NCBI GenBank assembly: GCA_023381015.1
Contig: JAMCTE010000012.1
Span: forward strand, 1-64,000
Direction: 5' to 3'
DNA: 64,000 nucleotides
DNA from: Patescibacteria group bacterium
Lineage (GTDB): Bacteria; Patescibacteriota; Microgenomatia; UBA1406; GWC2-37-13
Below, piece after piece: positions 30,021 to 50,861 of the stretch; the stretch's first letter is position 1; every line of letters starts with the position of its first letter. A model generated the notes under the pieces. That model searched no databases, was not told the DNA's origin, and saw nothing but the letters and a program-made list of their open reading frames with translations. The translations under genes and the position numbers were made by a program.

Positions 30021-32642
30021 ATGTTGGAAAATAATTTAATTCTCAAAATCCTTCAAAAAGAATTCTCTTTGTTACTGCGTTTTTTGCTTCCGTATTATGG
30101 TTTGATCGTTCAATTTTTCGAGATAGTGAAACCTTGGCTATTTGCTTTTATAGTCCTCTCTGCAATTTGTTGGACAATTTACTGGTTGATCAAGATATAC
30201 CTGACTTGGACTGAGTCTAATAAGCCTGCTACCTTGTTTGAGGTATCACCGCCAACTTTGACTGAGCAAAGCTCGTATACCACCACTCAATTATTTTCAT
30301 CCGTACACGGCTTACTTAGACAAAGATCTTGGATGTACCGATTGTTTGATGTCAGTAAATCGTATTCATTTGAAATAGTTTCATCCAAAGACAAAGGCAT
30401 TCGCTACATTTTGCGGGTTTCTGCCGATGATGCTTCAATAGTAAAGAAAAATTTAATTGCCTATTTGCCTGGTATTCAAGTCAAAGAAACAAATGATTAT
30501 CTAAATCCAAATTCTCAATTTGGTCACCTCATCGAAATTAAGTCTACCAACCATTTCGCTTTCCCACTCAAGAAACAGGACAACCTTAAAGAATATGACC
30601 CGATCGCATATATCACCGGTAGCATGACTAAATTAACTGAAGATGAACTGGTGGCCGTACAAGTAATAATTTTGCCAACTAGTGACAACGCTTCTCAAAT
30701 TGTTGGTAGGTTACGAGCGTTATTTCTAGCCAATAAGGATGTACTGAGCGAACTTAAGAGTGGTAATCCGGTTGGTTCGATATTTACTTCCCTGATATTT
30801 GTAACGCTACAAATACTCTTGTTCCCAGTTGGGCTAATGATTTGGATATTCACTGGCGGTCGAGAAGGGCCGATCCTGCCAATTTTGAGATTTGATCGAA
30901 TAATGCCTGATAGTACCTACCGAGATATCATTGAAACCCAGATCAAACAAAAAATTGATCAGCCACTATTTACTGCCTCTTTGCGAATTCTTACCGTTTC
31001 AAAATCACATACCAGTAGGCTAAAAATTGAAAAAGGTTTTATAGCCGCCTTATCACCCTTTACTAATGCCGGTTATCAATCACTTAGACCAAGACGCTAT
31101 CTCAAGCTTGATTTCATCAACAGCATCTTATTCTGGCTTTATTCCCATAGATTAACCAATTTCTTTGGTAATTTAACTCTTTCATCCACCGAGTTATCTG
31201 ACTTGTATCATTTTCCCTTTACCAGTACTACCAAGACGGAAAATTTGTCCAAGCTCCATAGTAAAGAATTACCAGCGCCTTTATCGCTTAAACAAAAAAC
31301 TGAATGTGACTTATATTTTGGACTAAATACCTATGGTGGCAGTGAAACCAAAATTGGCCTAGCTCTGGATGAACGTCGTCGCCATGTCTACATTCTCGGT
31401 GCAACTGGTACTGGAAAATCTACCATGCTTTTATCCATGATCAAACAGGATGTTGATCACAATAAAGGCTTATGCGTGATTGATCCACATGGTGATTTGA
31501 TCGAGCAAATATTGTCAGTGATCCCTAAAGAGCGGATTTCAGATGTGGTGTATTTCAATCCAGATGACATTAGCTTTCCTATGGGTATTAATCTCCTTGA
31601 GTTGACCCCAGGTTTAAATCCTGAGGATACTATCAGGGAAAAAGAATTTATCGCTGAAAGTATTATTTCGGTCTTCCATAAAATTTATACTGATAAATAT
31701 TCCGGGCCAAGAATGGAATACATTTTGCGAAACACTATCCATACAGCCTTTACTGTGCCAGATGCCACATTGTTTACGGTTTATAAGCTTTTGATTAACA
31801 CCTCATACAGAAAAGGGGTGGTTAGGGGTCTGACAGATGAAAACCTTAAAGACTTTTGGAAGTTTGAATTTGCTAAAGCTGGTGATTATCAAAAAGTAAA
31901 AATGATCTCACCAATTACGAATAAGATTGGTCGTTTTCTGTTTTCACCAACGGCTAAAAGAATTCTCGAACAAGGTAAATCAACCGTTAACTTTGACACT
32001 ATCTTAAATGAAGGCAAAATCCTGCTGTGTAATTTATCCAAGGGCAAAATTGGTGAGGATAATTCGAGCGTCTTTGGTGTCTTGATTATGGCTAAGCTTC
32101 AATTGGCGGCACTCAAACGAGCCAGAATGAAACAAGAAGATCGAAAAGACTTCTTTCTATATGTTGATGAGTTTCAAAATTTCGCCACCCCTGCGTTTGC
32201 TCAGATACTATCTGAAGCCAGAAAATACCGACTCGGCGCTATCTTGGCTCATCAAACTACTTCGCAACTTGAAGATTCATCCCTTGTAAATGTCACTTTG
32301 GCCAATACTGGAACGGTGATTTGTTTTAGAACAGCCAACCCAGAAGATGAACGGATGATCTTACCCCAATTTAGACCATATATTGATCAAGGAGAAATTG
32401 CCAGTTTGCCATCATATCGTTTTTATATGCGTCTAGGCGCTATTAATCCAGAAGAACCATTCTCGGGTGTGACGGTGCCAGTTCATATTGAATACAGTCA
32501 AAATCGAATTAATGAGGTTATTGAGTCATCTCGCAGGTTATATGCCATCGCATGGAAAGAAGGAGTTATCATATCTCAAAATAAACCTGTTGAATTTAAA
32601 CAATCATATCGAGCTAGCAACTTTTCTAGCATACTTCCGTAA
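30021..32642 (+). CDS. VirD4/TraG-type coupling ATPase with N-terminal membrane region
   Basis: RRHVYILGATGTGKSTMLLSMIKQDVDHNKGLCVIDPHGDLIEQIL (Walker A), FFLYVDEFQNFATPAFAQILSEARKYRLGAILAHQTTSQL (Walker B and sensor). Confidence 0.93.
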   Translation: MLENNLILKILQKEFSLLLRFLLPYYGLIVQFFEIVKPWLFAFIVLSAICWTIYWLIKIYLTWTESNKPATLFEVSPPTLTEQSSYTTTQLFSSVHGLLRQRSWMYRLFDVSKSYSFEIVSSKDKGIRYILRVSADDASIVKKNLIAYLPGIQVKETNDYLNPNSQFGHLIEIKSTNHFAFPLKKQDNLKEYDPIAYITGSMTKLTEDELVAVQVIILPTSDNASQIVGRLRALFLANKDVLSELKSGNPVGSIFTSLIFVTLQILLFPVGLMIWIFTGGREGPILPILRFDRIMPDSTYRDIIETQIKQKIDQPLFTASLRILTVSKSHTSRLKIEKGFIAALSPFTNAGYQSLRPRRYLKLDFINSILFWLYSHRLTNFFGNLTLSSTELSDLYHFPFTSTTKTENLSKLHSKELPAPLSLKQKTECDLYFGLNTYGGSETKIGLALDERRRHVYILGATGTGKSTMLLSMIKQDVDHNKGLCVIDPHGDLIEQILSVIPKERISDVVYFNPDDISFPMGINLLELTPGLNPEDTIREKEFIAESIISVFHKIYTDKYSGPRMEYILRNTIHTAFTVPDATLFTVYKLLINTSYRKGVVRGLTDENLKDFWKFEFAKAGDYQKVKMISPITNKIGRFLFSPTAKRILEQGKSTVNFDTILNEGKILLCNLSKGKIGEDNSSVFGVLIMAKLQLAALKRARMKQEDRKDFFLYVDEFQNFATPAFAQILSEARKYRLGAILAHQTTSQLEDSSLVNVTLANTGTVICFRTANPEDERMILPQFRPYIDQGEIASLPSYRFYMRLGAINPEEPFSGVTVPVHIEYSQNRINEVIESSRRLYAIAWKEGVIISQNKPVEFKQSYRASNFSSILP

Positions 32643-33166: not shown

Positions 33167-33925
33167 ATGGATATAACTATCACCACCAAACAACTCGAAA
33201 TACTTAACCTTCTCTATCGCTTCCGCTTTCTCAATCGCTCACAACTCCAAACTCTACTCAAACACAAAGACACCAAACGCATCAACACCTGGCTCAAAGA
33301 CCTCACCGACAAAAAAATTATTGGTCGTCACTACTCAACCAAAATCAAAGAAAACAATAAACCAGCTATCTATTATCTACTCGCCAAAAGTAAACCATTC
33401 TTACTTAATCAAAAAGCGGTTGATAACAAATTATTATTAAAGCGAATTTATCGAGAGAAAACCCGCTCCCAGCGACTCATTGATCATTGTATTTTGATAG
33501 CTGATTACTACTTAAATCTAACCAACATCATAAAAACTGAAACCCTGCACTTCTTTACTAAAACTGACCTATCAACTCATTATTATTTACCCTACAATCG
33601 CCCCGATGCTTACATTGCCAGAGAAGGTAAAGAGATTAAGCGATACTTATTAGAAATAATCGACGAGGGCACGCCACGCTTCATGATTCGCAAACTCATC
33701 GAGCGTTATATCGAATATTTTGATGCCAATACTTGGCAAAATAAAACTGGCCATCCTTTCCCTAAAATGTTGATCCTGTGTCCCAACACTTTGATAAAAG
33801 ATTTTCTTCACAAACATATATCCCAAGTTATGGAAGAAGAAGCCCAAAATGATATTGAGTGGTACTTATCAACCAAGGATAAGATCGAATGGGTTGATGC
33901 CCTGATTGACATCTCGGACGACTAA
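33167..33925 (+). CDS. Replication-relaxation family protein (winged helix)
   Basis: ITTKQLEILNLLYRFRFLNRSQLQTLLKHKDTKRINTWLKDLTDKKIIGRHYSTK...PAIYYLLAKS...RPDAYIARE. Confidence 0.8.
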   Translation: MDITITTKQLEILNLLYRFRFLNRSQLQTLLKHKDTKRINTWLKDLTDKKIIGRHYSTKIKENNKPAIYYLLAKSKPFLLNQKAVDNKLLLKRIYREKTRSQRLIDHCILIADYYLNLTNIIKTETLHFFTKTDLSTHYYLPYNRPDAYIAREGKEIKRYLLEIIDEGTPRFMIRKLIERYIEYFDANTWQNKTGHPFPKMLILCPNTLIKDFLHKHISQVMEEEAQNDIEWYLSTKDKIEWVDALIDISDD

Positions 33926-34677: not shown

Positions 34678-34714
34678 TTGAATAAGCTTGAGCTATCATC
34701 TACAATGTGTAGTA
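34678..34714 (+). promoter_or_regulatory. Promoter with BlaI-type operator 1
   Basis: TTGAAT (34678-34683)-17 nt-TACAAT (34701-34706); dyad ATCTACA-ATG-TGTAGTA at 34698-34714 over the -10. Confidence 0.7.
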
Positions 34715-34717
34715 ATT

Positions 34718-35098
34718 ATGGTAACTAAACAACTCAGCGAGCTTGAGCAAGAAGTAATGAATGAAGTCTGGGAATTAGACAGTTGTACCGTTAGAGATGT
34801 GGTCAATATTTTTACGAAAACTAAAGGATATGCCTACACCACAATTGCCACAATTTTAGAAAGATTACATGAAAAGGGATTATTGAAGAAAGACACCTCT
34901 GCCTTTACAGTGGCTTTTACACCAAAAATTACTCAAGTTGAGTATAGTAAAAAAATTGCTAGCTCTCTATTTGATAAGTTTTTTGGGACTTTCGGCGACG
35001 CTGCCATTGCCTCGTTTGCACAATCAATCGCTGAGTTGCCAAAACACAAAAAGGAAACATTGCTTAAATTGTTGCTTAATCATGATAAAAATAAGTAA
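34718..35098 (+). CDS. BlaI/MecI/CopY family transcriptional repressor
   Basis: QLSELEQEVMNEVWELDSCTVRDVVNIFTKTKGYAYTTIATILERLHEKGLLKK. Confidence 0.93.
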   Translation: MVTKQLSELEQEVMNEVWELDSCTVRDVVNIFTKTKGYAYTTIATILERLHEKGLLKKDTSAFTVAFTPKITQVEYSKKIASSLFDKFFGTFGDAAIASFAQSIAELPKHKKETLLKLLLNHDKNK

Positions 35099-36089
35099 GT
35101 ATATCTGGGTATTTCTGGGTTTGTTTGGAGCTTTATCGGCGCTAATTATCGGTGCCGGTGAAAAGTACTTGCCTTTTTTGTTACATAAAACCATTTATTT
35201 ATGCAAACACGTCATCTCATCTACCCCGATTGAACCCCTCCAAACAAACTTTAGACTCATAACTTATAGTGCAGTGGTGATTTTACTAAGTTATATCGGG
35301 TATCGATTGATGGCTACGATTTATTCGATAATCAAACAGAAGCGAGATCTAACTCAAAAAATAATCCAATCAGGGAAAATTGACCTTTTAGCCAAAGAAC
35401 TTGGATTGCAGAATAAGGTTTTAACTATTCAAGACAATCGACTCTTGGCTTTTTGCTTTGGAGTGTTTGATCCTAAAATCTATGTTTCTAGCAAAATGGT
35501 CGAACAGTTAAGTTCCAACGAACTGAAGATTGTGTTTCGCCACGAAATGTATCATTTGATTAATAAAGATATGTTGGTGATGACTATTGCTAGGTTCGGA
35601 GAGCTATTATTTCCATTCTTACCAGTTCTTTCTGATATTACTGCAAAATACTCCATGCAGCGAGAGGTTCAGGCAGATACCTTTGCCCATGCCAATACAC
35701 TCTCAGGCAAGAGGGACCTAATTTCCGTCCTAACGCAAATGCTTCGTGAAGAGGTTGTCCCAGCTTACGCATTTGCTTCAAATTTGGGAGAGTATGAAAC
35801 CCTAGAGGTGCGAATTAACTTACTTCTTGAAAGACATACTTCCCACCCTGGTTATTCTCCGATAAATCTTCTATTTAGCTTATTTTCACTGATTATTTTG
35901 GGCATTTTGTTTGTTACTCCTGTCAAAGCAATTGAGTACCATTCTCAGGGACAAGATGCGGTGATGGCCTGTATTGATCCATTCGGGTCCTGTAACAACA
36001 CTTGTGAGCTTAACTCAATTAAGTCCAGTTCTACACAGGGCGTTTCTCATTCTTACTCATCCTCTTCTTTTTCTTCGTCTATCTATTGA
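34938..36089 (+). CDS. M56-family (BlaR1/MecR1-type) membrane metallopeptidase; real start probably near 35081
   Basis: VFRHEMYHLINKDMLVMTIARFGELLFPFLP (HExxH-like HEMYH), MQREVQADTFA; the N-terminal part of the track ORF overlaps blaI out of frame. Confidence 0.82.
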   Translation: MSIVKKLLALYLISFLGLSATLPLPRLHNQSLSCQNTKRKHCLNCCLIMIKISKYIWVFLGLFGALSALIIGAGEKYLPFLLHKTIYLCKHVISSTPIEPLQTNFRLITYSAVVILLSYIGYRLMATIYSIIKQKRDLTQKIIQSGKIDLLAKELGLQNKVLTIQDNRLLAFCFGVFDPKIYVSSKMVEQLSSNELKIVFRHEMYHLINKDMLVMTIARFGELLFPFLPVLSDITAKYSMQREVQADTFAHANTLSGKRDLISVLTQMLREEVVPAYAFASNLGEYETLEVRINLLLERHTSHPGYSPINLLFSLFSLIILGILFVTPVKAIEYHSQGQDAVMACIDPFGSCNNTCELNSIKSSSTQGVSHSYSSSSFSSSIY

Positions 36090-36122
36090 CAGGTAGTTAA
36101 TAAGTTACTACACTTTGTAGTA
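36086..36122 (+). promoter_or_regulatory. Promoter with BlaI-type operator 2
   Basis: TTGACA (36086-36091)-17 nt-TACACT (36109-36114); perfect dyad TACTACA-CTT-TGTAGTA at 36106-36122. Confidence 0.8.
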
Positions 36123-36136
36123 GTTATTAATTATTC

Positions 36137-36913
36137 ATGTTCGACCATATGACAGAAGAAAAAAATTCTACTCCAAAAAATATATTTACAAGCAATCTAC
36201 ATATTGTTCTAGTAATTGCCTTGATAGTAGCGTCATTTGCGCTGGGATCGTTATACACAAAGGTAAAGTATCTCGAGAGTAATGGAGGTTCGTTAGCAGC
36301 AGCTAAACCCTCTGCACAGGCTCCCGCAGCTGCTGGAGATGCTCAACCAAAAGTTGCTCTTAAGACCCCAGAACTTACCAACGATGACAGAATTCGTGGT
36401 AATAAAAATGCTAAGGTTACCTTGGTTGAATACTCAGACTTTGAGTGTCCATTTTGTATTCGTTTTCATCCAACCATGCAGCAAGTCATGAAAGAATATG
36501 GTGACAAAGTAAAGTGGGTATATCGAGACTACCCTTTAGCTTTCCATGCCAACGCCCAAAAGGAAGCTGAAGCCGGTTGGTGTATCAACGAGCTTGGCGG
36601 GACTGATGCATTTTGGAAGTATGTAGACGCCATATTTGCCAAAACGACAGGTAACGGAACTGGTTTTGCACTGGAAAAGCTTGGTCCTCTGGCTGCTGAA
36701 CTGGGTGTAAATCAAAGTAAATTTCAGCAGTGTTTAGATTCAGCTAAATATGCTCAAAAAGTAAAAGACCAAATGGCCAAAGGTTCTGAAGAAGGTGTAT
36801 CAGGCACTCCAGGCACGATTATTATCGACGCTAAGGGTCAAACCCAGCTTGTTCCCGGCGCATTACCTTTCGAGCAAATTAAGTCGATGATCGACTCTGC
36901 CTTAAAACAATAA
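36137..36913 (+). CDS. DsbA-family thioredoxin-fold protein, membrane anchored
   Basis: VTLVEYSDFECPFCIRFHPTMQQVMKEYGDKVKWVYRDYPL (CPFC); GVSGTPGTIIID cis-Pro. Confidence 0.93.
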   Translation: MFDHMTEEKNSTPKNIFTSNLHIVLVIALIVASFALGSLYTKVKYLESNGGSLAAAKPSAQAPAAAGDAQPKVALKTPELTNDDRIRGNKNAKVTLVEYSDFECPFCIRFHPTMQQVMKEYGDKVKWVYRDYPLAFHANAQKEAEAGWCINELGGTDAFWKYVDAIFAKTTGNGTGFALEKLGPLAAELGVNQSKFQQCLDSAKYAQKVKDQMAKGSEEGVSGTPGTIIIDAKGQTQLVPGALPFEQIKSMIDSALKQ

Positions 36914-36933
36914 TACATGGAGTTACCTTACCA

Positions 36934-37977
36934 ATGGATATATTTTCTATCTTCATCACCGGCCTCTTTGCAGGCGGCATAACGTGCTTAGCAGTTCAGG
37001 GCGGTTTACTTGCAAGCTCGATTGCCCAACAAGAGGAAAACCTAGCTTCAGAATTTGAGAAACGATCGGGATCATGGATTCCGGTCGTTTCCTTTTTAGT
37101 CGCTAGGTTAGTGGCGTATACAATTTTGGGTATTTTACTGGGTAGCTTGGGTTCATTGTTTCAGCTTTCACTAACTGCTCGAGTCATTTTACAGTTAAGT
37201 GCTGTTGTTTTTATGGTAGGTACAGCCTTTAATTTACTGCAAATTCATCCTCTTTTTCGCTACTTTGTTATCCAGCCACCAAAAATAGTCACCCGACTGA
37301 TTAGAAATCAGTCCCGAAGCCAAGAACTATTTGGCCCGGCAATTCTTGGCGCTATGACCGTGCTAATTCCTTGCGGGGCAACTCAGGCAACCATGGCTTA
37401 TGCTCTCACCACCGGATCTCCAGTAGCAGGTGGGTTAACTATGTTTGCTTTTATTCTAGGTACCTCGCCACTCTTTTTACTTCTCGGAGTATTTGCTCGT
37501 AGTTTGAATCGATTAGCAAATGGAGCATTTAACACCGCAGCAGCGATGGCTATATTATTGTTAGCCACCTTTAATCTAAATGGCACGATTGCGCTCACGG
37601 GTAGTCCGTACACAGTTACAAATTTATTGACAAAAATTGAGTGCACCATTAGTTTTTGCAGTCCTGGCAAAGTAGCCGGAAGTACCACAACGGCCGGCAA
37701 ACCAGTGTCTGAAGCTACCATCTTCATCACCCAAAATGGTTATGAAACCGAGCCTACCAATTTAACAATCAAAGCGGGGTCTAAAGTTAAGTTGAATATT
37801 ATTAATCGAGGTGGCGGAGGTTGCGCTCAATCATTGACAATACCCAAGCTTAATGTTCAGCGAGTCGTATCAGTTGGTCAATCAGATGTTTTGGAGTTTA
37901 CTGCGCCAAAAATGCCTGGACCACTCGCCTTTATGTGTAGTATGGGCATGTATCAGGGAATAATTACGGTTATTTAA
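36934..37977 (+). CDS. Sulfite exporter TauE/SafE-like (CcdA-like) membrane protein with C-terminal cupredoxin-like domain
   Basis: ITGLFAGGITCLAVQGGLLASSI, GAMTVLIPCGATQATMAYA; C-terminal GGGGCAQSLTIPKLNV...FMCSMGMYQGIITVI copper-ligand pattern. Confidence 0.8.
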   Translation: MDIFSIFITGLFAGGITCLAVQGGLLASSIAQQEENLASEFEKRSGSWIPVVSFLVARLVAYTILGILLGSLGSLFQLSLTARVILQLSAVVFMVGTAFNLLQIHPLFRYFVIQPPKIVTRLIRNQSRSQELFGPAILGAMTVLIPCGATQATMAYALTTGSPVAGGLTMFAFILGTSPLFLLLGVFARSLNRLANGAFNTAAAMAILLLATFNLNGTIALTGSPYTVTNLLTKIECTISFCSPGKVAGSTTTAGKPVSEATIFITQNGYETEPTNLTIKAGSKVKLNIINRGGGGCAQSLTIPKLNVQRVVSVGQSDVLEFTAPKMPGPLAFMCSMGMYQGIITVI

Positions 37978-37983
37978 TTAATA

Positions 37984-38196
37984 ATGAAGACGATTACTTT
38001 TAAAGTAACTAATTTGGAATGTACGAGTTGTGCCATGAGTATCGACTTTGACTTGGAGGATTTAAAGGGCGTCGTAGAAGCCAGTACTAACTACGCTAGA
38101 CAACGCACTACTGTGACATATGATCCAGAACTGATTGATCAAAAATCAATCATTGCGAGGCTAAAAAACCTTAATTATGACGTTAAAATTATTTAA
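37984..38196 (+). CDS. Heavy-metal-associated (HMA) domain metallochaperone-like protein
   Basis: KVTNLECTSCAMSIDFDLEDLKGVVEASTNYARQRTTVTYDPELI (CxxC). Confidence 0.92.
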   Translation: MKTITFKVTNLECTSCAMSIDFDLEDLKGVVEASTNYARQRTTVTYDPELIDQKSIIARLKNLNYDVKII

Positions 38197-38198
38197 AA

Positions 38199-38234
38199 TT
38201 GTAAGTCATTGCTGATTTACTACAAAACATAGTA
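38199..38234 (+). promoter_or_regulatory. Promoter with BlaI-type operator 3
   Basis: TTGTAA (38199-38204)-16 nt-TACAAA; imperfect dyad TACTACA-AAA-CATAGTA at 38218-38234. Confidence 0.65.
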
Positions 38235-38248
38235 ATATGGAGGTATAT

Positions 38249-38983
38249 ATGAACGGCGAAAAGAAGTTTGTAATTGGCATTATACTGTCGACGATAGTTA
38301 TATTGGTAGGTGCCGTTTGGTTTTTGGGCAAATCCGATACCAACTCGAATAGCATAGATAAAACATCGACATTATCTCAAGACCAGCAAAAACTGTTGGA
38401 AGTTGTTGATGACGATTACCTTAAAGGCAATAAAGAGGCCAAAGTAACCATTGTTGAATATCTTGATTTTGAATGCGAGGCATGTGGTGCCTATTATCCG
38501 CTCGTGAAATCTTTAATGTCTGAATTTGGCCAAGATATTCGTTTTGTAACTCGTTATTTCCCGCTGCCAGGGCATAAAAATAGTATGCCTGCTGCATTGG
38601 CTGTTGAAGCGGCTGCAAAGCAGGGCAAGTATTGGGAAATGCATGATCTATTGTTTACAGAGCAAAGATCATGGGGTGAAAAAAAATCAGCTGATCCAAA
38701 AATATTTGAGGAGTACGCCAAAAAACTGGGCTTAAATATGGCACAATATGATAAAGACGTTAATTCAAAAGAGGCAAAAGCTCGAGTGGAACGGGATAAA
38801 AATGCTGGAAATCAACTTGGAATATTTTTGGAACCAACTTTCTTTGTTAATGGGAGTAAAATTCCAAACCCTAAGGGCTTGGAGGATTTCAAAACTTTCA
38901 TTAAGGCAGAGTTGCAAAAGAGTGCTCCATCAGATCGTACTCAAGAAGCAACGCCAAGTTCTACTGCCAGTCCAACGCCATAA
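38249..38983 (+). CDS. DsbA-family thioredoxin-fold protein, membrane anchored
   Basis: VTIVEYLDFECEACGAYYPLVKSLMSEFGQDIRFVTRYFPLPGH (CxxC); GGAGG RBS; start moved to 38249. Confidence 0.92.
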   Translation: MNGEKKFVIGIILSTIVILVGAVWFLGKSDTNSNSIDKTSTLSQDQQKLLEVVDDDYLKGNKEAKVTIVEYLDFECEACGAYYPLVKSLMSEFGQDIRFVTRYFPLPGHKNSMPAALAVEAAAKQGKYWEMHDLLFTEQRSWGEKKSADPKIFEEYAKKLGLNMAQYDKDVNSKEAKARVERDKNAGNQLGIFLEPTFFVNGSKIPNPKGLEDFKTFIKAELQKSAPSDRTQEATPSSTASPTP

Positions 38984-39021
38984 CTAGTTGGATAAATCAT
39001 GAAATTAAATGCAGAAACACT

Positions 39022-40923
39022 ATGCTTATTATGGAATTATTTAAACAGCCAAAAATTCGGCAACTTGCCATAGCACTCTCTATAGTCATTCCTCTAGAAG
39101 TATTGTCATTTTTCGCAATCCATTTACCGGCAGTTATTGAGTATCCTTTATTTTTAGGCATTATTTACATCTTCGGCAAAGACGTTATTTTTGGAGGTAT
39201 CCAAAGCCTTCTAAGACTTCGATTCTCAAATATCAACCTGTTAATGACCGTGGCAACAATTGGCGCTTTTTACTTAGGTGAGCTGGAAGAAGCGGTTATT
39301 ATTATTCTGCTATTTGCAGTGAGTGAAGCATTAGAAGAATTTGGCATCAATAAAAGTCAGAGCGCCTTGGAAGAATTAGTTGAGAAAACTCCCAAAACTG
39401 CTCAAGTGTTGGGCGAGCACGGGAGACGTCAGGTAGAAGAGATTAGCCTTGATGAGATTTTAGTGGTCAAGCCAGGTGATTATATTCCCTTAGATGGCTT
39501 GGTTGTTAAAGGTGAATCATTAGTAGATGAGAGTTCAATTACTGGTGAACCGCTACCTAAATCCAAATTTATTGGTGAGATGGTGTTTGCTGGAACACTC
39601 AATAGCCAGGGTTATTTAGAAATTAAAGTTACCAAAATCAGCAAAGATACTACCTTAGCTAAAATTGTTGATCTGACTTTTCAAGCGGCAGAACGTAAGT
39701 CTCAAATTACTAAGTTTATTGAAAAATTCGCACAAATATATACTCCAACTGTTTTTGTGATAGCAATTTTTTTGACATTTATCCCAGTAGTACTGTTTAG
39801 TCAGCCATTTTTATATTGGTTTACTCAAAGCCTAACCATACTACTCATCGCCTGTCCCTGCGCTTTAGTAGTCTCAACACCAATTAGTGTTTTTTCGGCA
39901 ATTGGAAATGCCAGCAAACGAGGCGTTGTGATTAAAGGTGGTCAATTTCTAGAGGAAATTGGCAAGGTTCGAGCCATTGCGTTTGATAAGACTCGGACAC
40001 TAACCTTGGGTGAGCCGCAGGTATCTGATGTCATACCACTTAACGGGTACACCAAGGCTGAACTATTGGCTTGTGTAGCCGGTGCCGAAGCCTTTTCAGA
40101 GCATCCCATAGCCAAAAGTATTGTTGAAAGTGCCCAATCTTATTCAAAAACCCACCATGAGTATCAAAATTTTAAAGCTCTGATGGGAAAAGGAATAAGC
40201 GGTGATTGTTTGGTGTGCGTTGATAAACACCACTGCATCGGAACGTTGCAATTTGTGATGGAAACTCATTCTGTGGATCAGAAAGTTATTGATATTGTAG
40301 AGGGATTTGAGGCTGAAGGTAAAACCGCAATTGTAGTCAGTGACGATAAAAAAATTGAAGGTGTATTGGGGGTAGTAGATGCCCTGCGACCAGAAAGCCA
40401 AGCCACCATCAATAAACTCCACGCCCTTGGCGTTAAAACAGCCATGTTAACCGGTGACAATGATAAAGCTGCTCAAGCTGTAGCTCAAAAAGTAGGCATC
40501 GATAAAGTCTACGCTCGCTTGCTTCCTGATCAAAAAGTTGACAGGTTATTAGAACTTAAACAAAAGTTTCAATCGGTCGCAATGGTGGGAGATGGTGTCA
40601 ATGATGCACCCTCACTGACAACCGCTTCAGTCGGAATTGCGATGGGTGCAGCCGGATCTGAGGTGGCTATTGAAAATGCAGACATAGCGTTAATGAACAA
40701 CAATCTGCGTCTAATTCCATTTTTAATTTCACTGGGCAAACGAACTACTCAAACAATCCAGATAAACACTACTGCTGCAGTCGTAGTAAAACTCTTCTTT
40801 TTGTTTCTAGCACTTCTGGGTAAAAGTAATTTAGCTTTGGCTGTTTTTGCGGATGTTGGAGTAACACTATTGGTTGTTGTGCACAGTCTGCGATTATTCA
40901 ATTTTGAAGTAAAAACAACATGA
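39022..40923 (+). CDS. P1B-type heavy-metal-translocating ATPase
   Basis: LIACPCALVVSTP (CPC), SSITGEPLPK, SEHPIA, MLTGDN, MVGDGVNDAPSL; phosphorylation motif is DKTRTLT rather than DKTGTLT. Confidence 0.94.
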   Translation: MLIMELFKQPKIRQLAIALSIVIPLEVLSFFAIHLPAVIEYPLFLGIIYIFGKDVIFGGIQSLLRLRFSNINLLMTVATIGAFYLGELEEAVIIILLFAVSEALEEFGINKSQSALEELVEKTPKTAQVLGEHGRRQVEEISLDEILVVKPGDYIPLDGLVVKGESLVDESSITGEPLPKSKFIGEMVFAGTLNSQGYLEIKVTKISKDTTLAKIVDLTFQAAERKSQITKFIEKFAQIYTPTVFVIAIFLTFIPVVLFSQPFLYWFTQSLTILLIACPCALVVSTPISVFSAIGNASKRGVVIKGGQFLEEIGKVRAIAFDKTRTLTLGEPQVSDVIPLNGYTKAELLACVAGAEAFSEHPIAKSIVESAQSYSKTHHEYQNFKALMGKGISGDCLVCVDKHHCIGTLQFVMETHSVDQKVIDIVEGFEAEGKTAIVVSDDKKIEGVLGVVDALRPESQATINKLHALGVKTAMLTGDNDKAAQAVAQKVGIDKVYARLLPDQKVDRLLELKQKFQSVAMVGDGVNDAPSLTTASVGIAMGAAGSEVAIENADIALMNNNLRLIPFLISLGKRTTQTIQINTTAAVVVKLFFLFLALLGKSNLALAVFADVGVTLLVVVHSLRLFNFEVKTT

Positions 40924-42131
40924 AACAAATAAACTATATTGACATTAAAAAAGACTTTTCTTTACTTGGTAATCCTAATTTGCATTATTTTGATAATGCC
41001 TGTCAGACCCTGAGACCACGACAAGTCATAGAAGCGATGACGAAGTACTACGAAGATTATCCAGCCTGTGGCGGTCGAAGCATGCATCGACTAGCTGCAC
41101 AGGTAACTAAACAATGTGAAGAAGCTCGTCAGATCATTGCCAGTTTTATTGGGGCCAAGCGAAAAGAGGAAATTGTTTTTACCAGAAACACCACGGAAGG
41201 TATTAATTTGGTGGCCAATAGTTTGAATCTAAAGGCAGGAGATGTTGTTTTAACCACAGACAAAGAACACAATTCCAACCTTATCCCGTGGCAAATGTTT
41301 GTAAAAAAACTAGGAATCATCCATGTGATTGTTCCTTCAAAACCGGACAACACTTTTGACCTTGAAGCCTACACTCAGCTTTTGGAAAAACACTCAGCTA
41401 AGCTCGTTTCTATGGCAATGACTTCCAATCTCGATGGTGTGTCTATTCCTGCTGACAAAGTTGTTAAATTGGCCCACCAGCACAAAGCCCTGATGCTTTT
41501 GGATGGCGCTCAAGCCGTACCTCATCACAGTGTGAATGTAGGTAAGCTTGATGTCGATTTTCTGGCTTTTTCTGGTCATAAAATGCTGGGACCGTCTGGA
41601 ATCGGCGTGCTTTATGGAAAATTTCATTTACTAGAAGAATTAAGTCCATTCCTAGTTGGTGGGGATACGGTTTCATCTTCAACCTATACTACCCAAGAAT
41701 TTTTGCCACCACCAGAAAAGTTCGAGGCAGGTTTGCAAGACTATGCTGGAATTATTGGGCTTGGTGAAGCTGTAAATTACCTCAATAGAGTGGGATTATC
41801 CGCAATTGAAGCTCAGGAGCTTGAGTTAAATACTTATTTGACAGAAGCCATTTCTTCAATTGACGGCTTAAAAATTCTAGGGCCAGAAGACCCAAAAACT
41901 CGTAGTGGGATTGTCTCTTTTTATATTCCAGGTAAAGACCATCACCAAATTGCTTTAATGCTTGATGAAAGTGCAGGCTTTCTTGTTAGATCTGGTCAGC
42001 ACTGTGTTCATTCTTGGTTTGCTCTAAAACAAATACCCGGCACGGTGAGAGTATCCTTTTATTTTTATAATACGCTGGAAGAAGCGGAAGCTTTTGTGCA
42101 TTCGCTCAAAAAAGTTGTGAGTATTTTATAG
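40920..42131 (+). CDS. Class V aminotransferase / SufS-like cysteine desulfurase
   Basis: SMHRLAAQVTKQCEEARQIIASFIGA, SGHKMLGPSGIGVLYGK (PLP Lys), RSGQHCVHSWF (catalytic Cys). Confidence 0.9.
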   Translation: MKQINYIDIKKDFSLLGNPNLHYFDNACQTLRPRQVIEAMTKYYEDYPACGGRSMHRLAAQVTKQCEEARQIIASFIGAKRKEEIVFTRNTTEGINLVANSLNLKAGDVVLTTDKEHNSNLIPWQMFVKKLGIIHVIVPSKPDNTFDLEAYTQLLEKHSAKLVSMAMTSNLDGVSIPADKVVKLAHQHKALMLLDGAQAVPHHSVNVGKLDVDFLAFSGHKMLGPSGIGVLYGKFHLLEELSPFLVGGDTVSSSTYTTQEFLPPPEKFEAGLQDYAGIIGLGEAVNYLNRVGLSAIEAQELELNTYLTEAISSIDGLKILGPEDPKTRSGIVSFYIPGKDHHQIALMLDESAGFLVRSGQHCVHSWFALKQIPGTVRVSFYFYNTLEEAEAFVHSLKKVVSIL

Positions 42132-45340: not shown

Positions 45341-45958
45341 ATGAGTATCTTTAGCAAATCAAAAAAGTCTAGCAGTCGAGGGCAAATCCAGATTAGAGAA
45401 GTCGTGGATAATATCCTTGTTCTGCCGGGTAACGAATATCGCCAAATCTTGGAAACTTCGTCAGTAAATTTTGAGCTCAAGAGTGAAGAAGAACAGGATG
45501 TGATTATCGATAGCTTTCAAAATTTCTTAAATTCTCTTCCGTGTGAAATTCAAATACTCGTTCGTGTGCGAGAAGTCGATATTGATCGCTACGTCGAAGA
45601 TATTGGTAAAACCAAAGATAAAGAAACTATCCTTGCCTACAAAAAACAGATTGAGGGCTATTGCTCATTCGTTAAAAAACTAGTCTCTGGTAATAAAATC
45701 CTTTCTCGCCGTTTTTATATTGTCATTCCTTACAAACACACTGAGCGTCATCAAGATATGAAGCTCATCAAAGAACATTTAAATCTTGAGAAAGACATCA
45801 TCATCAAAGGCTTGGAACGCATGCAGATGAAAGCGCGAAGTATAACAGGCCTTGAAATTCTCAATTTATTTTATGGTTTCTACAACCCGGAAAGTCTGAA
45901 AACTCAGGCATTAACGAGAGAAACAGTCGAAGCCTTACTGAAAAATAATTATGTTTAA
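45341..45958 (+). CDS. TraC-like domain protein (VirB4 N-terminal-like, split)
   Basis: IREVVDNILVLPGNEYRQILETSSVNFELKSEEEQDVIIDSFQNFLNSLPCEIQILVRVREVDIDRYV. Confidence 0.82.
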   Translation: MSIFSKSKKSSSRGQIQIREVVDNILVLPGNEYRQILETSSVNFELKSEEEQDVIIDSFQNFLNSLPCEIQILVRVREVDIDRYVEDIGKTKDKETILAYKKQIEGYCSFVKKLVSGNKILSRRFYIVIPYKHTERHQDMKLIKEHLNLEKDIIIKGLERMQMKARSITGLEILNLFYGFYNPESLKTQALTRETVEALLKNNYV

Positions 45959-47750
45959 CTTAAAGAAAAAATTCACTAGCCTAAAACCAATAAAAGCTTG
46001 GCAAAAGAAGCGAAAGCTCAAAGCCATGACAAATCAGGCAGTCAAAATAGCCTTTGGTACGCAGGATCAAGTGGATTTAATTTCCTACGCAGGCCTCAAA
46101 GAGGAATCAAGCTACCTGCAGATTAACGATAGATTCGTTAGAACTTTGTTTGTCTCTGGCTATCCATATGTCGCTTCAACTGGCTGGCTTAATAACCTCA
46201 TCAACTTTAATCACGATATCGATATTAGCTATCACATCGAACAAGTTGACCCGCTTACCGCCTTGCCCAAATTAATCAGAAAGATAACCGAGCTTGAGTC
46301 TACGAAGCGCACCATGCTCAAAGAAGGCAAAGTCATAGGGAGCGAAATTACTGATCCCCTCGAATCCGCTATGGAGCTTAAAGACAAAATCCAGCGAGGC
46401 ATGGAGAAACTCTTTCAAATCTCTATCTACATGACAATTAGCGCAGAATCGCTTATTGAGCTTAACAAAGTCACCAAACTACTAGAAACAGTCATGCAGA
46501 CGAGACTTTTCTACATCAAGCCAGCAACATTCCAGCAGATTGAAGGATTGCAGTCAATCTTGCCAAGAGCCGAGAATAAACTAGCACAGAAGCGTAATCT
46601 TGATAGCTCTAGTGCTGCCTTAACTTTTCCATTTGTCTCGTCCGAGCTGGTACAGGAATCAGGCATCCTCTACGGTATCAACAAATCCAACAACTCACTA
46701 GTAATCATCGACCGATACTCTTTAAACAATGCCAACTCAATTATTTTTGCGCAGTCTGGATCGGGTAAAAGCTATACTGCAAAAGTAGAAATACTCCGCC
46801 ACCTCATGCAAGGCACCAAAGTCATCATTATTGACCCTGAGCGTGAATATAAACAACTGGCTGCAAGTGTAGGCGGAACATATATCAAACTCTCAGCCAC
46901 TTCCAAAGAGAAAATTAATCCGTTTCAGTTCTCTCAACACTCAGTCACACAGGAAAATAATCTGTCGGAGCATATCCAAGATTTAACCGAGCTTATCTCT
47001 CTCATGGTTGGGTCACTCACCTCAGAGGAGCGGGCATCGGTTGATCGAGCACTGCTTCTCACCTACAAAGAGTCTAAACTAACTCCTCGCAAAAACGCTA
47101 AAAAACAGAAAGAACTTGAATACCCACTCCTCAAGGATTTCTATAAAAATCTCAAAACCATGAAGCATAAAGATTTATGCGATAGACTTGAGCGTTTTGT
47201 AAAAGGATCATTATCAACCGTCTTTGATTCCCAAACCAATATTAAATTAGATAACCGTCTGATTGTCTTTGATATCAAAGACTTAAATGAATCCATCAGA
47301 TCAATCATGATGATGGTGGTAGCTAATTTCGTTAATAACGAAGTCAAACAAAATCCTCAGAAACGAATGCTCGTTATTGATGAGGGGTGGATACTCCTCC
47401 AAGAGCCGGAAAGTGCGAGATTTATCTCAGGACTTGTTCGACGCGCCAGAAAATACTATCTAGGTGTCACGATTATTTCCCAACAAGCCAATGACTTCCT
47501 CAACCAAGATTATGGCAAGGCGATTGCAAGTCAATCATCTTTGAGAATCCTCATGCGCCAAGACACGACCACCATTAAAAAAGTGGCTGATGAGTTTCAC
47601 TTGTCTGCCTACGAACAACACTATCTACTAACCTGTGATCGGGGTGAGGCTTTAATTATTGCTGATCAAAACCATGTAGCGGTTAAAATCGTGGCCTCAG
47701 AGCAAGAGCATCCACTCCTGACTACTGATCCCCGGGAAGTCTATATCTAG
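45951..47750 (+). CDS. VirB4/TraC family conjugation ATPase
   Basis: SIIFAQSGSGKSYTAKVEILRHLMQGTKVIIIDPEREYKQLA (Walker A), RMLVIDEGWILLQEPESARFISGLVRRARKYYLGVTIISQQANDFL (Walker B). Confidence 0.95.
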   Translation: MFNLKKKFTSLKPIKAWQKKRKLKAMTNQAVKIAFGTQDQVDLISYAGLKEESSYLQINDRFVRTLFVSGYPYVASTGWLNNLINFNHDIDISYHIEQVDPLTALPKLIRKITELESTKRTMLKEGKVIGSEITDPLESAMELKDKIQRGMEKLFQISIYMTISAESLIELNKVTKLLETVMQTRLFYIKPATFQQIEGLQSILPRAENKLAQKRNLDSSSAALTFPFVSSELVQESGILYGINKSNNSLVIIDRYSLNNANSIIFAQSGSGKSYTAKVEILRHLMQGTKVIIIDPEREYKQLAASVGGTYIKLSATSKEKINPFQFSQHSVTQENNLSEHIQDLTELISLMVGSLTSEERASVDRALLLTYKESKLTPRKNAKKQKELEYPLLKDFYKNLKTMKHKDLCDRLERFVKGSLSTVFDSQTNIKLDNRLIVFDIKDLNESIRSIMMMVVANFVNNEVKQNPQKRMLVIDEGWILLQEPESARFISGLVRRARKYYLGVTIISQQANDFLNQDYGKAIASQSSLRILMRQDTTTIKKVADEFHLSAYEQHYLLTCDRGEALIIADQNHVAVKIVASEQEHPLLTTDPREVYI

Positions 47751-47752
47751 CC

Positions 47753-48370
47753 ATGAATCCAAAGCTAGTACTTACTCTCTGGTCGTTTCGCAAAGAACTT
47801 AAATTCGTCCTCCTCGCATTCCTCACTATCCTCATGCTTCCAGTCATTGCGGTCATTCTGCTAACTCAGGTGGGTATCAATGTCATCTCTGACAAACTGG
47901 TTGATCAAAATACTACAACTCAGGCTATTCAGATCAAAGATCCAACAACTGGAGAGGTGGTAAAGGAGATAAACCCCACCGTTGTGTGGCCAACCAAAGG
48001 CGTAATTACTCTGGAATTTGCACAATCGAGCATGTATCAGGTCTTCCATACTGGCATTGATATTGCCTCTAAGCTTGATGAGCCAGTGAACCCCGCTATG
48101 GACGGCACTGTTATTTACGCGGGAGAGATATTTTGGGGATATGGCAAACACGTCATTATTGATCATGGTAATAATGTCGTGACCATCTATGCCCACCTAA
48201 ACAAGATTTATGTCTTTAAAGGCCAAAAGGTGACCACCAGCGATGTAATTGGTGGCCAAGGTCAAACTGGCTGGGCAACAGGCGTACATCTCCACTTTCA
48301 GGTGAATGTATATGGAGTACCGGTGAATCCGAGAGTCTTTTTGGATAAGGAATATAAAAATATTCACTAA
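47753..48370 (+). CDS. M23-family (LytM) peptidoglycan hydrolase with N-terminal TM
   Basis: HTGIDIASKLDEPVNPAMDGTVIYAGEIFWGYGKHVIIDHGNNVVTIYAHLNK...GVHLHFQV. Confidence 0.93.
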   Translation: MNPKLVLTLWSFRKELKFVLLAFLTILMLPVIAVILLTQVGINVISDKLVDQNTTTQAIQIKDPTTGEVVKEINPTVVWPTKGVITLEFAQSSMYQVFHTGIDIASKLDEPVNPAMDGTVIYAGEIFWGYGKHVIIDHGNNVVTIYAHLNKIYVFKGQKVTTSDVIGGQGQTGWATGVHLHFQVNVYGVPVNPRVFLDKEYKNIH

Positions 48371-49782
48371 TACCTAGTGTTCACATAATAACCATGCCTT
48401 CCGCCACATGGATAACCATATTTATCTTTGTGGGCATTGAGGATTCCATTATTTGAGGATCTCGTAAATTTCTTACCACAATAGCTACATTGGTAGACAT
48501 ATTTAGGACCCAATGAATGTCGAGTACCAATTCTTCTAAAACTAGTTCGTGGGCGAAATTGTGGTTTATTGGGATCAAAAAGGTAAGGATTTTCTGGAGT
48601 TTCTCCTGCTTTCGATAGCTCTATGAGGAATCCCTCTCTCGGAGTGAAGCTATCGTCGGTATTTTCGATGGACTGAAAATTTTCTGCAACAAAACATCTA
48701 ATGCCGGGAAGGTGTTGACCTCCAGAACAGTTATACGCATAAAAATACTCGCGTTGTTGGCCATCCCTTTTCTGTAGATATTTCAAGGAATAAGGCTCAA
48801 TAACGCGATCTTCACCTTTATACCTCACTCTCAAAAGGGTTTGTGATCGAGCCGCTTTCATGATCGGCATGCGCAAATCTTCCCCAAAATAAGCAAAGTC
48901 TGTATATCCACTGTCCGTGTAAATACTAAATATACTTTCGAGGTCAGCAAGAAGAGTATTTATGGCATCATCAACTCCAAAAATAATACTTTTGGCACAT
49001 ACGAGAGATTTGTCCCAGTACTCACGGAAATAGTCGAATGAGGTTTTTAACAGGATATTTTTCAAGACTTGAGGGTTCCGTTCAAATATTGTTTTTTTGA
49101 TTAGTGTTTCAACAACTTCTTTTTTGTTTAGCTGCCCTCCCAGTAACTTTATTGAGTATGCATAATCGAATAGATCGGGTGCATGTTGTCTTTGAAGCAA
49201 ACATTTTAACTTTGTAGCGATAATTTCCTCCAACTTTACACACTTGATATCTACTACAAGCTCCGAGAAATCAGAATAGGGGTGAATAAGTTTTACGCTT
49301 TGAATAGGCAAAAGAACCTTATCAAAGCGGGTTATGTCCATGGATATTTTAATCCTGAAATGATCGGTATTGCCGTAAAAATCTCTAAAATATACCCTCG
49401 CCTCATAAACCTTCAGTCCTGGAATTGGAACTTCGCTAGCAGAAAATTTTTCTTCCACTTTATTATCATCTCTAATAAAAGATATCTCGGCTTTTTCTTG
49501 GATAAAGTCACATACTTTATTAATTTCGCTTAGTAGAACTTCCTGAGAGATATCTCCTGGGATACCAAAATCTAGATCATTTGAATATCTGGTATTTTCA
49601 AAGTATCCTTTTCGTAAAGCGTTACCACCTTTCAGGAACAAAGTTTCCTTCAGATCACTAATGGTAAAAAGACCATATAACAACCAGCCGAAGACATAAT
49701 CTCTTTCCACATTTGCTCGGTGAATTTGAAACTCTAATGATTTTGCATCTATTTCGTCTTTTTGAATCATATTTATACACAA
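48367..49782 (-). CDS. AbiEii/AbiGii-type nucleotidyltransferase fused to WYL-like domain and C-terminal zinc finger
   Basis: FLKGGNALRKGYFENTRYSNDLDFGI (NTase); RSQTLLRVRYKGEDRVIEPYSLKYLQKRDGQQREYFYAYNCSGG...IRCFVAENFQSIENTDDSFTPR (WYL); YQCSYCGKKFTRSSNNGILNAHKDKYGYPC (zinc finger). Confidence 0.85.
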   Translation of the reverse strand: MCINMIQKDEIDAKSLEFQIHRANVERDYVFGWLLYGLFTISDLKETLFLKGGNALRKGYFENTRYSNDLDFGIPGDISQEVLLSEINKVCDFIQEKAEISFIRDDNKVEEKFSASEVPIPGLKVYEARVYFRDFYGNTDHFRIKISMDITRFDKVLLPIQSVKLIHPYSDFSELVVDIKCVKLEEIIATKLKCLLQRQHAPDLFDYAYSIKLLGGQLNKKEVVETLIKKTIFERNPQVLKNILLKTSFDYFREYWDKSLVCAKSIIFGVDDAINTLLADLESIFSIYTDSGYTDFAYFGEDLRMPIMKAARSQTLLRVRYKGEDRVIEPYSLKYLQKRDGQQREYFYAYNCSGGQHLPGIRCFVAENFQSIENTDDSFTPREGFLIELSKAGETPENPYLFDPNKPQFRPRTSFRRIGTRHSLGPKYVYQCSYCGKKFTRSSNNGILNAHKDKYGYPCGGRHGYYVNTRY

Positions 49783-49820
49783 ACTGGCTTATTTACTACG
49801 CAATAGTATAATATAAATAT

Positions 49821-50024
49821 ATGAATAGCCAGGATATGGAGAACTTTGGTAAAAGAATTAAGATTGCCAGAGAAAAGTTGGATCTCACACAAGTAGAAAT
49901 TGCAAAAAAAGCTGACATGACGGTTAACTACTACGCCATGATAGAGCGTGGTGAGGTAAACCCATCGTACGAGAAAATAAAGAGTATTGCCAAAGTCCTC
50001 AAACTCAAGATCACTATTTCCTAG
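49821..50024 (+). CDS. XRE-family HTH regulator, divergent from the NTase-WYL gene
   Basis: FGKRIKIAREKLDLTQVEIAKKADMTVNYYAMIERGEVNPSYEKIKSIAKVLKLKI. Confidence 0.92.
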   Translation: MNSQDMENFGKRIKIAREKLDLTQVEIAKKADMTVNYYAMIERGEVNPSYEKIKSIAKVLKLKITIS

Positions 50025-50283
50025 CATTAAGTGCTAGTTTGGCAGATTCTCTCATCATTTCGACCAGTTTTTCAGCCTCTTCGAATGTTGCTCTCTTAGG
50101 ATTTGTTTGTTGTAGGCTCTCCAGAGCAGATTTGAACATCTGATCGTGATTTGCAGTATCTATAGCAAATTGCAATGTCTCTTTTGGTACTGCCTCAAAT
50201 TTTTCCTTGCCGATAGCAGTAATCTCATCCCACGGTAGCGAAGCAATACTGCTATTTTTATCCATGAGCGTATTATAGTCCAA
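50014..50283 (-). CDS. Small hypothetical protein
   Basis: 89 aa ORF, charged, no family recognised; start may be the internal Met (MDKNSS...). Confidence 0.5.
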   Translation of the reverse strand: MDYNTLMDKNSSIASLPWDEITAIGKEKFEAVPKETLQFAIDTANHDQMFKSALESLQQTNPKRATFEEAEKLVEMMRESAKLALNARK

Positions 50284-50316: not shown

Positions 50317-50757
50317 CTACATGTATTTTTCGTACCCAATAAAGTTAAATAAATCTACGGCGAAGCCGCCGTCCTCAAGACGGCGCATAAATTCTCTGCT
50401 TTTTGCCTGAGAAAGGATATTTAGGCTACCTTCCCATAGAATATTGCGGTCGATAATGGCTAGTTTTCGGTGGTGATTGCCTGTGCAAAGCAGTACTTGG
50501 ATGCCAATATCCTCAAATTCTTGGATTTCCACCTCAGATTGCTCATCGTAGCCATCTATGTGTTCTCGTGGGTCTCGAGTGATTATGTAGATTTTAACTC
50601 CACGCTCAACCAAACGTCGAAATACTGGCCAAAAAGTCTTCATTCTAGCTATGGTGATGAATGGACTTTCTATAATTACCTCATTCTGACTATTTTCTAA
50701 GTCAGTCAGAAATTTGCAGAAGAAGGTTTTCTCGTCATGTAAAGAGGTTTTAATCAT
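50317..50757 (-). CDS. Phospholipase D-like (Nuc-type) protein, single HKD motif
   Basis: NHHRKLAIIDRNILWEGSLNILSQAKSREFMRR (HxKxxxxD); GGAGGAGG RBS. Confidence 0.87.
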   Translation of the reverse strand: MIKTSLHDEKTFFCKFLTDLENSQNEVIIESPFITIARMKTFWPVFRRLVERGVKIYIITRDPREHIDGYDEQSEVEIQEFEDIGIQVLLCTGNHHRKLAIIDRNILWEGSLNILSQAKSREFMRRLEDGGFAVDLFNFIGYEKYM

Positions 50758-50861
50758 GTAAATCCTCCTCCGACTTCGATTGATACAGTTCCATTAACCT
50801 GGTAAAATGCACTAGGTAATTATCGGAGAGCGGTTCAAAATAAGAATCGTCCTCCGCACCG

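Follow-up and report, generated by a model that had tools for sequence, protein, structure and literature searches.

AbiE is a widespread abortive-infection module. To our knowledge, what switches on its nucleotidyltransferase (NTase) AbiEii is not settled, and we know of no AbiEii fused to a WYL domain with a measured toxicity, ligand, or target. AbiE has been described as a bicistronic type IV toxin-antitoxin system (AbiEi/AbiEii) associated with mobile elements and defence, in which hG[GS]x15DhD, R63, K173/R180, and D192 are required for AbiEii toxicity (Dy et al. 2014, PMC3985639). The closest solved fold, matched over about 300 residues, is that of MenT3/TglT (Rv1045) and MenT4 (Rv2826c) of M. 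tuberculosis, toxins regulated by MenA antitoxins (PMC11375011). WYL-DUF1814 fusions, which have the same domain pair as the protein presented here, have been proposed as ligand-sensing parts of defence systems (Makarova et al. 2014, PMC4012209). This was the only treatment of WYL fused to AbiEii/DUF1814 that we found in the open-access literature; the main text of that paper gives it one line and does not divide AbiEi-linked from AbiEi-free lineages. The domain pair is thus already known, and the new part is a clade that has no antitoxin. The AbiE of M. huakuii (PMC8436566) was considered as a studied member of the family and rejected, as its whole abiE cassette of 1.42 kb is too short for this architecture.

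The gene studied here lies in a 64,000-nucleotide stretch (the window) of contig JAMCTE010000012.1, contig 12 of a 1.06-Mb assembly of an ultra-small bacterium that is 84% complete (GCA_023381015.1); the relatives found in searches were Patescibacteria. Its product shares with AbiE the AbiEii NTase fold, the four toxicity motifs, and the mobile-element and defence association, but it has no AbiEi, is not part of a bicistronic system, and carries an added WYL domain and zinc finger. The preliminary description had listed a 471-aa frame starting at TTG and separated by 38 bp from a divergent XRE gene. The frame is indeed open over 471 aa (48367-49782, reverse strand). However, Met5 of this frame is the invariant first residue in the alignment of the homologs, so the TTG start is probably wrong; ATG at 49770 is probably the best start, giving a gene of 467 aa at 48367-49770 and a gap of 50 bp. 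The gene is tail-to-tail with an M23 peptidase gene (47753-48370, forward strand) and head-to-head with the XRE gene (49821-50024, forward strand), which is real and divergent as first described (HTH_3, 1.8e-15).

To assign the domains, Pfam and PADLOC profiles were combined with an AlphaFold2 model based on 43 family members (mean pLDDT 85.9, pTM 0.76). The NTase domain (48916-49770, reverse strand; about residues 1-285) was matched by Pfam AbiEii at 1.7e-22, above the curated cut-off, and by PADLOC AbiEii at 8e-49. The WYL domain (48649-48882, reverse strand; residues 297-374) is modeled as a leading helix followed by a five-strand Sm/SH3-like barrel. PADLOC matched it at 6e-4 (residues 306-385), and Pfam WYL was detected in 31 of the 43 family members, the window protein itself being below detection. 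A disordered linker (388-417) separates the WYL domain from the C-terminal zinc finger (48367-48504, reverse strand; residues 423-467, with C428, C431, H447, and C455). In Foldseek searches against the PDB, the NTase part resembled MenT4 (6y56, 2.8e-9, probability 1.00) and MenT3/TglT (about 4e-8), and the barrel resembled ssDNA-bound DriD (6e-4) and CapW (9e-4), as well as BrxR and PafBC; profile searches agree weakly with these assignments. NTase and WYL folds are thus predicted in a single chain, as is the finger, and the structure prediction bears out the fusion proposed from the reading of the sequence. The proposed CxxC...H...C finger held up as well, being invariant in 24 of 24 aligned tails. 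In contrast, the solved MenT chains (about 290 residues) have neither barrel nor finger. DriD, CapW, BrxR, and PafBC share the WYL barrel but are HTH transcription factors, whereas the window protein lacks the N-terminal winged HTH of WYL regulators and has the NTase in its place as the output domain. A stand-alone WYL protein of 87 aa (L144:1489-1752; Pfam 1.6e-13) in another Patescibacteria genome matches the WYL part of the family.

The motifs required for AbiEii toxicity have counterparts in the window protein (467-aa numbering): GG48-49, x15, D65-L-D67, R61, K187/R194, and D199xxD202, where D192 of AbiEii is equated with the DxxD by motif and not by structure. All of them are invariant among the 43 homologs, the solo clade described below included, and the catalytic site is intact as judged from these residues. 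Pairwise comparison of the four closest sequences gave pN values of 0.17-0.27 and dN values of 0.19-0.33 with saturated pS, and by this measure the gene is evidently under purifying selection. A misassembled or decayed copy, which was considered as the origin of the solo state, is ruled out by the conserved clade, the intact motifs, and pN being far below pS.

Scanning the collection with the window protein as a single sequence returned no relatives. On the other hand, an alignment-based scan gave 537 candidates, and 80 genome loci from many phyla were fetched from among the matches listed. Full-length homologs were found on plasmids too, and one on a viral contig, while the phage records searched contained no match to the window protein. 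The fusion is therefore not specific to this assembly. With a profile built from annotated AbiEi genes, an AbiEi ORF was found directly upstream, overlapping or close to the toxin start, in 72 of the 89 full-length fusions among the matches listed. For the remaining 17, including the window protein, no AbiEi was found within the 1.5-6 kb examined. A maximum-likelihood tree (quick search), from which the frame-broken L049, L070, and L116 were excluded, placed the 17 solo proteins in one clade (SH-aLRT 100) and the 72 AbiEi-linked proteins in the other, with one change each. The copy of genome G063 was not counted, since it looks split and its DNA contains a run of unread bases. The absence of AbiEi is thus a trait of the clade. 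As the tree is unrooted, it fits a clade that has lost AbiEi as well as one that was antitoxin-free from the start. The profile detected no AbiEi in the whole window, in larger stretches around L003-L006, or in the 84% complete assembly, although it was positive in four of four control genomes; the lack of an AbiEi partner noted at the outset is thereby extended to the assembly. An antitoxin not homologous to AbiEi might still be encoded elsewhere in the genome.

The solo clade has members in Patescibacteria, Alphaproteobacteria, Limnobacter, Paenibacillus, Streptomyces, and an Aminicenantes bacterium, and since it spans several phyla it has probably moved between them. Within the window's own family, 2 of 72 genomes, the window genome counted, have the solo fusion, a sporadic presence as expected for an accessory gene. 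The AbiEi-linked operons encode toxins of the same three-part architecture at about 25-31% identity to the window protein, but they differ in having AbiEi directly upstream, in the signature GGTCLKK instead of the GGNxxRK of the solo clade, and in a WYL domain that keeps RxDR. In the barrel, R322 and EPY are invariant, while the solo proteins have either lost the R361 and R364 of the AbiEi clade or have K there. It is therefore uncertain that the solo-clade WYL binds nucleic acids in the manner of DriD. As for neighbours, a DUF3800-like gene immediately follows the solo NTase gene of Sinorhizobium (L032:7392-8156), and DUF3800 also occurs near AbiE in the Thermococcus plasmid pTBMP1 (L038).

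The WYL domain and the finger can be aligned between the two clades, so the tail probably predates their split; four solo members (L004, L005, L034, and L048) lack the finger. As the tail is equally present in the 72 systems having AbiEi, it is not simply a replacement antitoxin, and for the same reason the anatomy does not require autoinhibition. An AbiEii toxin might be tolerated without AbiEi because it is weak or silent, or because some unrelated trans-acting factor neutralises it, with WYL and finger aiding substrate recognition only. The tail common to the AbiEi-bearing clade fits such a toxin, as WYL need not be an off-switch there, and RNA binding is common among Sm-like barrels and zinc fingers. 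We nevertheless find this rather unlikely, as the solo state is maintained in several phyla, its active sites are intact and under purifying selection, and it is no decaying remnant. Moreover, when the ORFs of 18 loci were read by eye, no conserved neighbour replacing AbiEi in the solo clade was seen. A self-contained NTase gated by its own WYL domain is the reading that we favor.

The surroundings of the gene agree with the conjugative element suggested in the preliminary description. The element bears a type IV secretion system (T4SS) with a VirB4-type conjugation ATPase (45341-47750, forward strand; split into 45341-45958 and 45951-47750) and a coupling-protein-like ATPase (30021-32642, forward strand). 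To the right of the XRE gene, a small ORF of 89 aa (50014-50283, reverse strand), present in several elements, and a gene for a PLD-family protein (50317-50757, reverse strand) precede a sharp right edge at 50832-50859 (forward strand), which is common to three genomes and beyond which homology ends. A tRNA-derived direct repeat was sought as a mark of the left end and was not found. Compared with an element from another family, VirB6, VirB4, and M23 show 98% protein identity and 86.9% DNA identity over 4.7 kb. The VirB4/VirB6-type cluster resembles the published T4SSs of Patescibacteria (PMC12102498), but those are mainly chromosomal and relaxase-poor, whereas the window element ends sharply on the right and has a variable slot for cargo; a text search of that paper found no mention of defence or cargo. 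Next to the coupling ATPase, a Replic_Relax protein (33167-33925; PF13814, 2.4e-12) may be relevant to the published view that relaxases are missing from most T4SS clusters of Patescibacteria. By eye, the T4SS region at 34688-42131 contains a BlaI/BlaR-like pair, DsbA-like proteins, a P-type metal ATPase, and a cysteine desulfurase. A second M23 homolog (46%) at 6872-7228 of contig 16, of a type that most genomes of the family carry, suggests a second, putatively resident cluster in the assembly.

The NTase gene occupies a variable cargo slot between the M23 and XRE genes (48348-49820); DNA homology to other elements breaks off at 48347-48352 and restarts past the cargo. To compare slots, 37 further stretches were fetched from PLD homologs, picked regardless of cargo. 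The order VirB6-VirB4-M23-[slot]-XRE-PLD recurs, and the M23 gene of the window's slot flank was found in two relatives. Slots could be read at 20 loci, the window included, and were empty (under 300 bp) in five and filled in 15. In genome G743, 54 bp separate the M23 match from the XRE match, which is followed by PLD, as in an empty site.

These elements also bear on the XRE gene, which the preliminary description had offered as a possible partner. A two-gene toxin-antitoxin or regulator pair, in which the divergent XRE protein represses or neutralises the NTase, was suggested by the adjacent divergent genes over 50 bp and by the fact that XRE antitoxins are common. However, XRE stands between the slot and PLD in the empty-slot elements L171, L220, L224, and L229, it likewise remains next to PLD when the cargo is CBASS, Avs2, or restriction-modification (R-M), and no divergent XRE accompanies the NTase relatives L039-L041. 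The neighbourhood comparison and the empty-slot elements thus refute the XRE gene as partner, leaving such a pair extremely improbable; the XRE gene belongs to the backbone of the T4SS element and not to the NTase.

Recognised defence genes were present in 10 of the 15 filled slots, the window gene counted among them. The slot of G187 encodes a Cap15-type effector (Pfam 4.5e-22) together with a CD-NTase (PADLOC cyclase 5e-100), i.e., CBASS. Among the ten, CBASS occurs four times, in L170, L202 (cyclase 3.6e-125, TRIP13 3.5e-121, NucC 2.8e-81), L218, and L230. L206 carries AbiEi/AbiEii, L208 ThsB/PDC-M50, L221 a type I R-M system accompanied by an OLD-like ATPase, L227 a GajB-like helicase, and L237 Avs2 (2.5e-303); the L227 and L230 matches may be partial systems. 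At 1e-20, PADLOC matched 131 families in 40 slot ORFs and none in 40 chromosomal ORFs, the latter being window ORFs of one genome only. The AbiEii-WYL gene is therefore located in a defence slot of a T4SS-bearing element, the setting that had been surmised. Solo relatives elsewhere adjoin type I and II R-M, Gabija GajA, and OLD/AriA-like ATPases, and together with the slot these neighbours lend support to the idea of a defence effector. The cargo of L225 (1841-5249), with chromate-transporter-like, permease, thioredoxin-like, and ArsR-like genes, looks by eye like metal resistance and not defence. Slot ORFs to which these searches gave no clear defence assignment (L207:6635-9010, L223:2201-3337, the slot ORFs of L214, and L218:5997-7226) are, given their place, candidates for new defence genes.

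Two other roles were weighed against this setting. The NTase could serve addiction to the T4SS element or its maintenance instead of anti-phage defence, as AbiE stabilises plasmids (PMC3985639) and the gene rides on the element that is so similar in DNA to the copy of another family. This is improbable, since the labile antitoxin needed for classical addiction is absent and the slot, empty in a quarter of the readable elements, holds mainly defence cargo. We give equally little credence to a non-toxic NTase that helps to control the element's transcription or transfer: most WYL domains have regulatory roles (PMC4012209), and the finger could bind DNA, but the gene is missing from the other examined copies of the element and homologs occur far from any T4SS. 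The best explanation, on which our confidence is evenly divided, is a stand-alone, AbiEi-independent NTase of AbiEii/MenT type that is WYL-gated and carried as defence cargo by a Patescibacteria T4SS element.

For the mechanism, we infer an RNA target, a ligand, gating by WYL, and a role of the finger as follows. In healthy cells, the NTase would be held off by the WYL barrel of the same protein, possibly aided by the zinc finger. A nucleic-acid or nucleotide ligand arising from phage or plasmid attack would bind the barrel and thereby switch on the NTase, which would then most likely nucleotidylate tRNA or some other RNA, arresting translation. tRNA is suggested as the target by the MenT fold match and by published MenT work (PMC10435456 and PMC11375011), and ligand sensing is in line with the proposal made for WYL fusions, DUF1814 among them, by Makarova et al. 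(2014). More broadly, we tentatively propose, as a picture plausible rather than probable, a clade of antitoxin-free NTase effectors, each a single chain, that crosses phyla. In it, the WYL barrel would directly gate a MenT-type toxin, so that ligand sensing takes the place of the two-gene logic of AbiE, and in Patescibacteria the clade would travel in a dedicated T4SS defence slot.

In the open-access literature, we found no description of the antitoxin-free clade or of the cargo slot. A lineage that has a sensor-type domain and no antitoxin gene makes the question of how AbiEii is switched on testable with one gene. The M23-XRE slot with its changing defence cargo is possibly more interesting than the fusion itself. 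Patescibacteria genomes are reported to have few defence systems each (PMC12259885), and the slot adjacent to M23 in their T4SS elements is a simple place to seek new defence genes in this group.
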